Source: Chitinophagales bacterium (GTDB lineage Bacteria > Bacteroidota > Bacteroidia > Chitinophagales > Chitinophagaceae). From it: a stretch of DNA of 64,000 nt. Each line of letters begins with the position of its first letter. Position 1 is the stretch's first letter. The position numbers and the translations under genes were made by a program. The notes beneath the pieces are model-generated. The model was not told the DNA's origin and did no database searches. It was given only the letters and a program-made list of their open reading frames with translations. Shown one piece after another: positions 9,124 through 49,719 of this stretch. The stretch lies in NCBI GenBank assembly GCA_026936105.1, contig JAIXKI010000026.1:100193-164192 (forward strand), in the 5' to 3' direction.

Positions 9124-9145
9124 GACATTTTTCAGGAGGAGATCC
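9104..9145. repeat. Inverted repeat across two convergent 3' ends
   Basis: GGATCTCCTC (9104-9113) is exactly complementary to GAGGAGATCC (9136-9145), with an inner CTGA (9120-9123) / TCAG (9132-9135) stem. It covers the stop codons of both the 8767 ORF and nnr. There is no T-run on either side, so it is not a standard intrinsic terminator. Confidence 0.6.
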
Positions 9146-10640
9146 GGGCAAAGGCTTCGCCCAGGTTATCGGCAATATCCCCGGCGGTCATCGCTTCCTG
9201 CGATAATTTTTTTGCAGCAATATCTCCTGCCAGTCCATGTAAATACACTCCGAATATAGCGGCATGTTCAGGTTCATATTTCTGCGCCAGCAAAGCAGTA
9301 ATAATCCCTGATAAAACATCACCGCTTCCTGCAGTTGCCATTCCTGCATTCCCGGTATTATTGAAATAGCCTTTCTCTTCCGGTGTGGCAATGAAAGTAT
9401 GATGCCCTTTCAGTACTATGATGCAATTCAATTCTTTTGAGTTTTTCATTGCCTGATCAATTCTCTCGTATTCATTGGAGCAGCTTCCGAAGAGCCTTTC
9501 AAATTCTTTCGGATGTGGAGTAAGTATGGATTTTGCCGGGAGAGAGCGGAACATATCTTTTTCCATGGAGATACAGTTCAGCCCGTCGGCATCAATTACT
9601 AAAGGCATTTTAAATTTTCTTATCAGATCCTTGATGGCTGTCCTTGTTTCCTTAGCCGTCCCGATACCGGGACCGATACCTATGGAATTATAGATCATAA
9701 GGTCGGTATCAATATTTGTGATGAAAGATGAATTGAAATCAGTTATAACCATTGCCTCAGGTTGAGCTGTTTGTAAGACCTGGTAACCACACTGGGGAAT
9801 ATGGCAGGTGAGCAGTCCCAAACCGCTCCGAAGGCAGGCTTTTGCTGCTAAAACAGCAGCGCCCATTTTGCCGTAGCTTCCAGCAGCAATCAAGGCGTGT
9901 CCGAAATTTCCTTTGTGAGAGAACGGATCCCTGGGTTTGTAAATGGAACGGATCATTACCTCATCTATTAATTCTTTTTTTGTTGCTATCTCAGAGAAGA
10001 ATCCGGGCTTCAACCCGATATTGATGATATGGATTGATCCGGTGAAAGGGGAGTTTTCTGCAAGGAAGAATGAGGGCTTCAGGCTTTGAAGGCTCAGGGT
10101 ATGGGTGGCTTTGACGATTGCATTCCCTTTAGAAGATGAGTCAATGAACATTCCGCTCGGTATGTCTATGGAGATCACCTCACATCCTGCAGCATTGATA
10201 TGGTTGATCAGCCCGGCAAAAATTCCTTCAGGTGGACGGCTGAGTCCGGAGCCGAACAAGGTATCAATGATGACCCAATCCGGTGACAGATCAGGGAATG
10301 TAGTTCCCTCCTGAATAAAATGAATGTCTTTGTGATGGGACTTTTGCATTCTTACAAGGTTTGTTTGAAAATTATCTGTCCCTTTATGCCCCGATTCTAT
10401 AATATAAAGAGTGGCTGTGCTATCCTTTTCAGTAAGCATTCTTGCAATAGCCAGTCCATCGCCGCCATTATTTCCCTTGCCGCAAAAGATCACAAAATGT
10501 TTTCCTGCACTATAATGTTCCAGTATCCATTTTACGCAGTTTGCAGAGGCTCTTTCCATCAGGTCTATAGAAGCAATTGGTTCATGTTGAATAGTATATT
10601 GATCCCATTCCCTGACCTGTTTTGCGGAAAGTAATTTCAT
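9132..10640 (-). CDS. nnr: Bifunctional NAD(P)HX epimerase / ADP-dependent NAD(P)HX dehydratase
   Basis: Metabolite-repair enzyme that converts hydrated NAD(P)H back to NAD(P)H. The N-terminal YjeF_N epimerase half (about residues 1-215) contains the GNNGGDGL motif near residue 56; the C-terminal ribokinase-like dehydratase half (about 225-500) has LTPHPKEFERL and the catalytic-loop motif GNAGMATAGSGDVLSGI. The 502-residue length is right for the fused bacterial enzyme. It sits 40 bp downstream of the serine hydrolase gene on the same strand and may be co-transcribed. Nothing suggests damage. Confidence 0.95.
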   Translation of the reverse strand: MKLLSAKQVREWDQYTIQHEPIASIDLMERASANCVKWILEHYSAGKHFVIFCGKGNNGGDGLAIARMLTEKDSTATLYIIESGHKGTDNFQTNLVRMQKSHHKDIHFIQEGTTFPDLSPDWVIIDTLFGSGLSRPPEGIFAGLINHINAAGCEVISIDIPSGMFIDSSSKGNAIVKATHTLSLQSLKPSFFLAENSPFTGSIHIINIGLKPGFFSEIATKKELIDEVMIRSIYKPRDPFSHKGNFGHALIAAGSYGKMGAAVLAAKACLRSGLGLLTCHIPQCGYQVLQTAQPEAMVITDFNSSFITNIDTDLMIYNSIGIGPGIGTAKETRTAIKDLIRKFKMPLVIDADGLNCISMEKDMFRSLPAKSILTPHPKEFERLFGSCSNEYERIDQAMKNSKELNCIIVLKGHHTFIATPEEKGYFNNTGNAGMATAGSGDVLSGIITALLAQKYEPEHAAIFGVYLHGLAGDIAAKKLSQEAMTAGDIADNLGEAFARISS

Positions 10641-10680
10641 GACCCGTAAAGTTGAGAAACTATTCGCAAATAATAAATGA

Positions 10681-11928
10681 TCAGCGTTTTAGTTTTTTTG
10701 TACGGGATGTCCTGATCTTTGATCTTCCTTTGTTTTTATTTGCCGGCCTGATCTTTTTGGGTGGCTCTGAAACAGTTTCTTCGTCATTGGCAACTTCGTT
10801 AAAATAATCCCCGAATAAATTATAAGACCTCCATGCAGTATTATAGATCATTTCATTGAACTTATTGCCAAGTATGATGATAGTCACATTTTCATCCTGA
10901 AGCTTTGCGAATGCTGCGTTAAAACCATGCCATCTGCCAAAATGGTAGATTACTTTTTTACCTGCGGGAGTGATCATCAGACGGAATCCCAATCCATAAT
11001 AATGATGAGGAAATTTTTTCCCGTCGGTCAAATGGATATCAGAGAATTGAGGTGAAAAAGCTGAGTCCATCATGGCTGCATTGATAAGCCGGCCTGAGAA
11101 CAACATATTGCTCCAGCGAAGCAGGTCCCTGGGCGTGGAATAAACATTTTTATCGCCATAGGTCTCATCAAACATATCATTTTGCCAAAGATTATTATTG
11201 CCATAAAAAGACATGGTTGCCAAACTGTCTCCCGGAGTGTAAACGTAAGTATCATGCATCTGCAGAGGATCGAAAAAATATTCTTTCATGTACTGCGGAA
11301 AACTTTTCCCGCTGATCTTCTCGATAATAAGAGCCAGTAAAACAAAATTGGTGTTACTGTAATTATAGCGGGATCCCGGAGTATAAGTGATCCCCGGTTG
11401 CTGTGTAGTTAAAAAATTGAGTACATCATTGTTGGTCACATTACCGGGTTTATCCCAATTTTTATTGGTAATAAAGTAAATATAATTCGGTAATCCGCTT
11501 CGATGGCTCAGAAGCATTCGTACGCTGACGCCTCTGTAAGGAAAATCGGGGAAAAACTTTTGCAGGCTGTCTTCCAGGGAAAGTTTTCCTTCTTGTACCA
11601 TTTGTAATATGGCAATTGCAGTCAGCGTCTTGCTGGTGGAAGCGATCTGAAATGAAGTGTGTTCATTGATACTGTCCTTCTTTCTCAGGTCTGTACTGCC
11701 GGAATATTTTTCATACACTATTGTATCTCCTTTTGCAACAAGAATGCTACCATTGAATCCATTCATCAGCAATTTATTTTCCATGAAATCGCTCACCCGG
11801 TCGTAAAGAGGGCCGGAATGAAGAATGACCTCTCGGTCTATGACCTTTTTGGAATTATCCCTGGATAAAAGCTCATTGCATCCGCATAGCGCCAATAGTA
11901 TGAGAAAGCCTAAGAGATTTTTTTTCAT
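10681..11928 (-). CDS. Serine hydrolase, beta-lactamase class C / DD-peptidase-like lipoprotein
   Basis: Member of the large class C beta-lactamase-related family (Pfam Beta-lactamase), usually peptidases or esterases rather than true beta-lactamases. Signal peptide ends LLALCGC, making it a predicted lipoprotein (415 residues). The catalytic set is visible: S-x-x-K in ASTSKTL, Y-x-N as YSN in RYNYSNTNF, and an HFGRWHGF block at the position of the third (KTG/HxG) motif. A Lys/Arg-rich C-terminal tail (last 25 residues) is unusual and may be a poorly structured extension. A -7 element lies just upstream. Natural substrate unknown. Confidence 0.88.
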   Translation of the reverse strand: MKKNLLGFLILLALCGCNELLSRDNSKKVIDREVILHSGPLYDRVSDFMENKLLMNGFNGSILVAKGDTIVYEKYSGSTDLRKKDSINEHTSFQIASTSKTLTAIAILQMVQEGKLSLEDSLQKFFPDFPYRGVSVRMLLSHRSGLPNYIYFITNKNWDKPGNVTNNDVLNFLTTQQPGITYTPGSRYNYSNTNFVLLALIIEKISGKSFPQYMKEYFFDPLQMHDTYVYTPGDSLATMSFYGNNNLWQNDMFDETYGDKNVYSTPRDLLRWSNMLFSGRLINAAMMDSAFSPQFSDIHLTDGKKFPHHYYGLGFRLMITPAGKKVIYHFGRWHGFNAAFAKLQDENVTIIILGNKFNEMIYNTAWRSYNLFGDYFNEVANDEETVSEPPKKIRPANKNKGRSKIRTSRTKKLKR

Positions 11929-47264: not shown

Positions 47265-48965
47265 ATGGGAGAATTTCAGGTAAAAAAACAAAGTAAAAAA
47301 TATGATGTGGTCATTGTTGGCTCGGGCGCCGGTGGAGGCATGGCCACATACATGCTGGCAACAGCAGGAATAAAGGTCTGCCTTATTGAAGCAGGCCCCA
47401 TGTATAATCCGCAAAAGAATGTGACCCAATTAAAAAATCCATGGGACTCTCCCCGACGCGGCGCCAGTACTCATTACCGCCCGTTCGGTGATTTTGATGC
47501 CTGTTACGGCGGATGGGAAATTGATGGTGAACCTTATACTAAAGCGGAGGGTACTGACTGGCTATGGTGGAGAGCCAGGATGATCGGGGGAAGGACCAAC
47601 CATTGGGGAAGAATTTCCCTTCGTTTTGGCCCTAAAGATTTCAGAAGGAAAGATCAGGATGGATTGGGTGAGAACTGGCCGATCAGTTATGATGATATCA
47701 AACCCTATTACGATCGTGTAGATCAGCTCATTGGTGTATTCGGCACCAATGAAGGTTTGGAAAATGATCCGGATGGATATTTTCTTCCTCCGCCCAAGCC
47801 AAGGCTTCATGAGCTTTTTATTAAGGATGCTGCAGCAAAAGCAAAAGTCAGGGTTATTCCGGGCAGGCTTTCCATGCTAACGCAAAAAATCAAAAGTACC
47901 ACTGACAGAGGCCCTTGCTTTTTCTGCGGCCAGTGCAACCGTAACTGCAGTATTGCCAAAGCAGATTTCTCTTCGTCCAATGTATTGGTTTATCCGGCTC
48001 TGGAAACAAATAATGTGGACGTGATCACGAATGCCATGGCAAGAGAAGTGTTGACAGACAATGAAGGTAAAGCCACAGGTATTTCCTATATCAACAAAGA
48101 TGACAGGATGGAGTACCAGGTAATGGGTAAAGTGGTGATAGTTGCTGCCGGCGCCTGCGAGTCTGCAAGATTATTGCTCAATTCAAAATCACAAAGGCAT
48201 CCGAACGGACTGGCCAACTCAAGTAATGTGGTAGGAAAATACCTTCATGATTCCACCGGCGCTTCATTGGGCGGTTACCTGCCAAAACTTTTTGGAAGAA
48301 AAAGATATAATGAAGATGGTGTGGGCGGAATGCATGTCTATTCACCCTGGTGGCTGGACAATAAAAAACTGGATTTTCCCCGAGGATATCATATTGAATA
48401 TTGGGGAGGAATGAGTCAGCCAGCTTACGGATTCGGATTCGGTATAGAATCGCAAAACGGTAAGTATCCTGTAAATGGGAAAAAGAAAGAAGCCGGAGGA
48501 TACGGTGCTTCATTAAAAGAAGATTACCGTTACTTCTATGGAGCCAGCGTGGGCATGGGCGGACGTGGTGAAGCTATTCCGCTCGAATCCAATTATTGTG
48601 AGATAGATCCTAATGTGGTAGATCAGTTTGGTATTCCGGTATTGCGATTCAATGTTAAGTGGAGCGATCACGAGATCAAGCAAGCCAAACACATGAAGGA
48701 AACATTCAAAGAGATCATGCACAATATGGGTGCCGTCATCACCTGGGGCGGTGATGACGATGAAAAGAATAACTGGGGCCTTGCCAAGCCCGGCGAGATC
48801 ATTCATGAAGCCGGTACGGTGAGAATGGGCGATGATCCGAAACGTTTTGCACTCAATAAATGGAACCAGGCGCATGACTGCAAAAATTTATTCGTCGTGG
48901 ATGGAGGTGCATTCACCTCACAGGCAGACAAGAATATAACCTGGACCATACTGGCCTTGCGATGA
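47265..48965 (+). CDS. GMC family oxidoreductase, C-terminus lost by a frameshift
   Basis: FAD-dependent sugar or alcohol dehydrogenase of the glucose-methanol-choline family (566 residues as read). FAD motif VVIVGSGAGGGM near residue 15 and LIEAGP near 41; GGRTNHWGR; a cysteine cluster CFFCGQCNRNC near 219-229; and near the end VVDGGAFTSQADKNITWT. The reading frame stops at 48963 within ILAL, but the next frame (48962-49012) continues as MRASDYIVDELKKQNL, the expected family end. One missing G (TTGCG for TTGGCG) would restore a full protein. The small subunit gene follows 91 bp after this stop. Likely a membrane-linked dehydrogenase passing electrons to quinone or cytochrome. Confidence 0.88.
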   Translation: MGEFQVKKQSKKYDVVIVGSGAGGGMATYMLATAGIKVCLIEAGPMYNPQKNVTQLKNPWDSPRRGASTHYRPFGDFDACYGGWEIDGEPYTKAEGTDWLWWRARMIGGRTNHWGRISLRFGPKDFRRKDQDGLGENWPISYDDIKPYYDRVDQLIGVFGTNEGLENDPDGYFLPPPKPRLHELFIKDAAAKAKVRVIPGRLSMLTQKIKSTTDRGPCFFCGQCNRNCSIAKADFSSSNVLVYPALETNNVDVITNAMAREVLTDNEGKATGISYINKDDRMEYQVMGKVVIVAAGACESARLLLNSKSQRHPNGLANSSNVVGKYLHDSTGASLGGYLPKLFGRKRYNEDGVGGMHVYSPWWLDNKKLDFPRGYHIEYWGGMSQPAYGFGFGIESQNGKYPVNGKKKEAGGYGASLKEDYRYFYGASVGMGGRGEAIPLESNYCEIDPNVVDQFGIPVLRFNVKWSDHEIKQAKHMKETFKEIMHNMGAVITWGGDDDEKNNWGLAKPGEIIHEAGTVRMGDDPKRFALNKWNQAHDCKNLFVVDGGAFTSQADKNITWTILALR

Positions 48966-49012
48966 GAGCATCGGATTATATTGTGGATGAACTGAAGAAA
49001 CAGAATTTATGA
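48962..49012 (+). pseudogene. Out-of-frame C-terminal remnant of the GMC dehydrogenase
   Basis: Sixteen codons in a different frame, reading MRASDYIVDELKKQNL and ending in TGA. This is the normal C-terminal sequence of GMC proteins of this type, so the junction at about 48957-48962 is a probable one-base deletion or sequencing error. Confidence 0.75.
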
Positions 49013-49056
49013 CCCTCTAAATCTCCCGATAATTATAATTAAAGGAATTTTTTAAA

Positions 49057-49719
49057 ATGGACAGAAGAGAATCTTTAAAACTGATCGCAACCGGAGCTGT
49101 AGCAGTTCCTGCAGTGATCGCTGCGTGCAACACAGAAGAGAAAAAGACAACAGAGCAGAAAGCTGAACCTTCTTTCAATCTTGACAGATACCCGGAAGAA
49201 TTGAAAAGAGAGAAAAAACTGCTGGCAGAAGAAAATTTCTTCACTCCTGAAGAAATGGCCACAATCACGATCCTTGCCGATATCATCATTCCGAAAGATG
49301 AAGTAAGCGGCAGCGCTTCCGATGCCAAAGTCCCCGACTTCATAGAATTCATTGTGAAGGATATGCCGGAGCACCAGGTTCCCCTGCGGGGCGGGCTGAG
49401 CTGGCTGGATGTTGAATGCCTGAAAAGGTATGAAAAACCATTCCGTGAATGCAGCCATGAGCAACAGATAGAAATGGTGGATGACATTGCATATCCCGAG
49501 CGGAAATTAAAACCGGGAATGTCACAAGGAGTGAAATTTTTCAATAAAATGAGAGACCTTGTGGCCACCGGCTTTTATACTTCAGAGATCGGTGTGAAAG
49601 ACCTTGGCTATATGGGCAACAGGCCTAATCAATGGAATGGAGTTCCGGATGATGTATTAAAGCAATACGGAATGGCTTATACCGAAAAAGAATTGAAAGA
49701 GTGTGTGAAGTTCGATTAG
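49057..49719 (+). CDS. Gluconate 2-dehydrogenase subunit 3 family protein
   Basis: Small exported subunit (220 residues) that accompanies GMC dehydrogenases. Its N-terminus carries a twin-arginine-type signal (DRRESLKLIATGAVAVP) and a lipobox VIAAC (Cys24), so it can be Tat-exported and lipid-anchored, carrying the dehydrogenase with it. The family core from FFTPEEMATITILADIIIP through the C-terminal MGNRPNQWNGVPDDVLK region is present. Directly downstream of the GMC gene, confirming the pair. Needed for export or maturation in related systems; the electron acceptor is not encoded here. Confidence 0.9.
   Translation: MDRRESLKLIATGAVAVPAVIAACNTEEKKTTEQKAEPSFNLDRYPEELKREKKLLAEENFFTPEEMATITILADIIIPKDEVSGSASDAKVPDFIEFIVKDMPEHQVPLRGGLSWLDVECLKRYEKPFRECSHEQQIEMVDDIAYPERKLKPGMSQGVKFFNKMRDLVATGFYTSEIGVKDLGYMGNRPNQWNGVPDDVLKQYGMAYTEKELKECVKFD

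Follow-up and report, generated by a model that had tools for sequence, protein, structure and literature searches.

The window, a 64,000-nucleotide stretch of a Chitinophagales bacterium contig, contains a sugar-dehydrogenase-like gene for the large subunit of a GMC-type FAD oxidoreductase (47265..48965, + strand) whose frame ends early, and our comparisons point to a private, isolated loss of one base close to the 3' end of a gene that is intact elsewhere and under selection. With little doubt the loss is one of two ordinary things, a very recent mutation in the strain or a consensus or assembly error, and between these two the balance is about level; it would not be programmed, and the predicted 566-residue product would keep the whole Pfam match. 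We read the loss as private because the relatives keep the C-terminal tail, the alignment with the closest relative (genome G002) holds one gap, constraint on the gene is strong, and no other true frameshift was found among the 222 ORFs compared.

The ORF encodes 566 amino acids and belongs to the GMC oxidoreductases by its Pfam matches, with the N-terminal domain (GMC_oxred_N, PF00732) at 51.7 bits (cut-off 23) and the C-terminal domain (GMC_oxred_C, PF05199) at 66.3 bits (cut-off 24.6). Whether the tail is present or not, the C-terminal match covers the profile as far as position 138 of 139; a full-length, orthologue-like C-terminus, which lies outside the Pfam definition, is absent from the window ORF, its tail being out of frame. 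The source genome, which spans 3.6 Mb in 37 contigs and is 99.88% complete, contains no second orthologue, the sole other match being 35% identical. At 47916-47948 (residues 218-228) the protein carries a C-x2-C-x2-C-x3-C motif (CFFCGQCNRNC), whose four cysteines are invariant across 32 aligned sequences and whose position matches a cysteine-rich stretch of a solved glucose dehydrogenase; we take these cysteines to be a likely Fe-S cluster site.

The last codons of the window ORF read ATA CTG GCC TTG CGA TGA, placing the premature TGA stop at 48963..48965 on the + strand. Reading of the ORFs bears out the initial annotation, which had the frame from 47265 stop at this triplet and the normal tail begin at 48962: from the ATG there, the + strand spells M-R-A-S-D-Y-I-V-D-E-L-K-K-Q-N-L, 16 codons followed by a stop at 49010-49012 (48962..49012 overall). 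This is not a chance match, because all 16 residues are identical to the in-frame tail of G002, and every one of the 102 relative loci covering the site has a tail in frame; its codons differ from those of G002 by one silent change, in addition to the stop codon. The tail frame lies 1,697 bases from the start of the ORF (48962-47265), a remainder of 2 modulo 3, so that a ribosome would need a one-base back-step to enter it. The annotation's phrase "+1-shifted" was thus right about the loss of one base and loose about the frame, which is the -1 frame.

Alignments with G002 and other relatives, made with blastn and MAFFT, show that the stretch at 48955..48962 (+ strand) is one base shorter than in the relatives. 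Over the whole gene the gap relative to G002 is single and one base long, set after 48955 by blastn and after 48961 by MAFFT. The relatives' in-frame tails and this single gap agree with the original proposal that a one-base frameshift removes a conserved C-terminus; its further claim that the missing base is a particular G proves to be one of several placements, and the identity of the lost base cannot be fixed because synonymous positions differ between the two species. As a result of the shift the window protein ends in R566, and the 17 residues that relatives carry beyond position 565 are missing.

To place the lesion among relatives, we assembled 105 loci, comprising the window itself (L001), a paralogue (L002), one locus that meets a contig edge before the site (L022) and the remaining 102, which cover it; four genomes are present twice among these 102, leaving 98 distinct ORF sequences. 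The relatives are named as Chitinophagaceae and other Bacteroidota, many from metagenome assemblies, with a few records titled as other groups, and the closest, G002, shares 97% amino acid identity with the window protein. After residue 565 all 102 continue in frame, for 17 residues in 100 loci, 18 in one and 22 in another, and the paralogue carries a tail as well. Nine of the 17 tail positions are at least 90% invariant across 32 aligned sequences. In a family-wide search of 294 genomes with the intact G002 protein as query, 176 had a match; among the 150 matches listed, 149 extend to residues 578-581 of 581, the window alone ends at 565, and none contains an internal stop. Homologues that also lack the tail, which the initial annotation said would refute it, are found neither in the 102 covering loci nor among the other 149 matches listed.

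Comparison of the window gene with that of G002 over the 565 shared codons yields a dN of 0.0175 and a dS of 0.754, values that indicate strong constraint on the gene. When L004 and L005 serve as outgroups, the window branch receives 52 synonymous-codon and 11 non-synonymous-codon differences and the G002 branch receives 30 and 9, respectively; a further 82 and 11 are assigned to neither. These branch counts reveal no clear excess of amino acid change on the window branch, as relaxed selection would produce; a very young pseudogene would likewise give none. We rejected an old pseudogene, as the constraint appears unbroken. Judged from these alignments and counts, the one-base loss is private to the window and either very recent or spurious.

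The partner gene lies directly downstream and is intact: it encodes a 220-residue small subunit of the gluconate 2-dehydrogenase subunit 3 family (49057..49719, + strand; PF13618, E = 6.3e-35), with a dN of 0.032 and a dS of 0.71 relative to G002 over 654 bases. The Pfam matches, the constraint and this partner agree with the earlier reading that the small-subunit gene and everything upstream of the lesion are intact. A loose motif search detected a small-subunit-like start downstream of the gene in 53 of 54 loci checked. The spacer between the subunit genes is only 44 bases long in the window (49013-49056), beginning CCCTCTAAATCTCCCG, and ~370 bases long in G002 (C2:104589-104960), where a CCC..TAAAT..CC-type sequence stands at its start and a weak DUF559 remnant scores below the cut-off (E = 0.00078; 19.7 bits, cut-off 20.6). 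The 44-base spacer is perhaps the remnant of an element like that in the G002 spacer; in a loose scan of 54 loci, a CCC..TAAAT..CC-like motif followed the stop in two.

DNA identity with G002 climbs to 97–98% at 48795-48993. Tracts of 96–100% identity, on a background of ~80%, are seen at window positions 48795-49156 and at ~84–91 kb and 203–211 kb of contig C35 of the source genome, and perhaps reflect recombination or strongly conserved genes. A recombination tract at the lesion was considered, and we draw nothing from it because similar tracts occur elsewhere in contig C35. An Rfam scan of the window gave no matches, a plasmid search gave one partial match, and a literature search at the level of record listings found nothing useful.

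As a check on assembly quality, we compared ORFs of at least 100 amino acids from 749 kb of G002 with ~0.6 Mb of the window's genome, thus parts of both genomes, retaining those whose best segment had at least 60% identity. This left 222 of 589 G002 ORFs (87,190 residues, ~262 kb of coding sequence), of which three were flagged: the GMC gene, what we read as the boundary between two genes that are one ORF in G002, and an ORF in tandem repeat DNA. In the window, two adjacent genes on the - strand at 9132-11928, by eye NAD(P)H-hydrate epimerase/dehydratase-like and serine-hydrolase-like, correspond to one continuous ORF in G002. In the reverse direction, 221 of 471 ORFs were compared. The three flags raised there all lay at 5' ends, and two showed a one-base gap ahead of a later in-frame ATG; by our reading, all three are consistent with over-long ORF starts. 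An earlier run at 65% identity, without a relative-score filter and without contig C31, gave five flags among 102 ORFs and three among 98, including a second ORF in repeat DNA and, for G002, a single flag at a 5' end. No other true frameshift was found among the 222 ORFs compared with G002, and within the compared parts the GMC frameshift is thus isolated. The flags lend no support to an error-rich assembly; a single residual error is still compatible with them.

The consequences of the truncation were considered with predicted structures. The model of L027, an intact relative (mean pLDDT 56.8), has a confidently predicted last helix at 558-578; a cut after residue 565 takes 13 residues from this 21-residue helix but none from the Pfam domain match. 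The model of the window protein (mean pLDDT 45.1) has no terminal helix, and residues 505-566 fall below 50. The models are no more than suggestive of an effect of tail loss on the terminal fold, since both are of low confidence and the L027 and window proteins differ at 8% of residues. The family profile stays aligned with the solved Gluconobacter fructose dehydrogenase through the tail, as far as the end of that enzyme. The truncation is probably, though not certainly, harmful, because the last helix is mostly lost and the tail aligns with the end of fructose dehydrogenase, although the Pfam match is unchanged; we infer that the 566-residue protein would have reduced stability or no activity. 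Given that its Pfam match reaches position 138 of 139 without the tail, the truncated enzyme might retain some activity.

A genuine and very recent one-base deletion, truncating the large subunit in this strain, has close to an even chance of being the cause. Its position fits: it lies within the gene's final 3%, past the Pfam domain match, and truncation is tolerated best at a gene's end. The assembly is otherwise clean in the compared parts; on the other hand, the tail is kept in all 102 covering relatives, with the invariance noted above at nine of its 17 positions, and without clear relaxed selection the mutation would have to be very young. A consensus or assembly error, in which the cells carry the relatives' frame and sequencing or assembly dropped the base, is about as likely, also close to an even chance. 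Such an error would account for a gene that is intact in every covering relative examined, strongly constrained and accompanied by an intact partner, and one true frameshift in 222 ORFs, or ~262 kb of coding sequence, is a rate to be expected from a few residual consensus errors. However, the absence of other frameshifts marks the compared parts as clean, which makes an error precisely here unexpected, and a random error within the gene would hit its last 3% only ~3% of the time.

Recoding, in which the tail would still be made through a -1 shift of the ribosome or by stop-start reinitiation at the ATGA of 48962-48965, is very improbable, even though the TGA stop overlaps the ATG that opens the tail frame. 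The out-of-frame arrangement occurs in none of the 102 covering relative loci and in none of the 149 other family matches listed; the tail's first methionine is in frame in 97 of the 102, which makes the stop overlap a by-product of the shift. A slippery heptamer has the form X XXY YYZ, and reading CTG GCC TTG CGA TGA by eye reveals none. Reinitiation, moreover, would yield only a detached 16-residue peptide. A lineage-specific version, in which a -1 slip supplies the tail or the separately reinitiated peptide docks on the truncated enzyme, is more improbable still. Programmed frameshifting, which the initial annotation had listed among the causes, was rejected, as the relatives read straight through the site and no relative examined shows or needs it. 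The mutation-or-error reading looks like an ordinary finding that involves no new mechanism.

Automatic annotation would label this locus a truncated GMC dehydrogenase or else a pseudogene. The comparison shows instead that strong selection kept the gene in this lineage, at least until very recently. If the lesion is real, nature would here be testing whether the enzyme family can dispense with its last helix.

Orthologous GMC oxidoreductases of Bacteroidota, including those of G002 (C2:104961-106703), Terrimonas ferruginea (L061), Lacibacter (L051 and L053) and Pedobacter (L062), are 66–97% identical to the window protein over the 565 shared residues and, in the alignment of 32 sequences, share its four invariant cysteines; they differ in continuing in frame past 565 for 17 residues (18 and 22 in two loci), whereas the window protein continues for one, R566. 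By sequence the nearest solved proteins are the large subunit of Gluconobacter japonicus fructose dehydrogenase (7w2j, 8xcm) and the FAD glucose dehydrogenase of Burkholderia cepacia (6a2u). A fold search with an intact relative's model led to the same Gluconobacter and Burkholderia enzymes, which come from another phylum and share ~22–24% identity in the fold alignments; fructose dehydrogenase aligns with the orthologue family profile through the very tail that the window frame leaves out.
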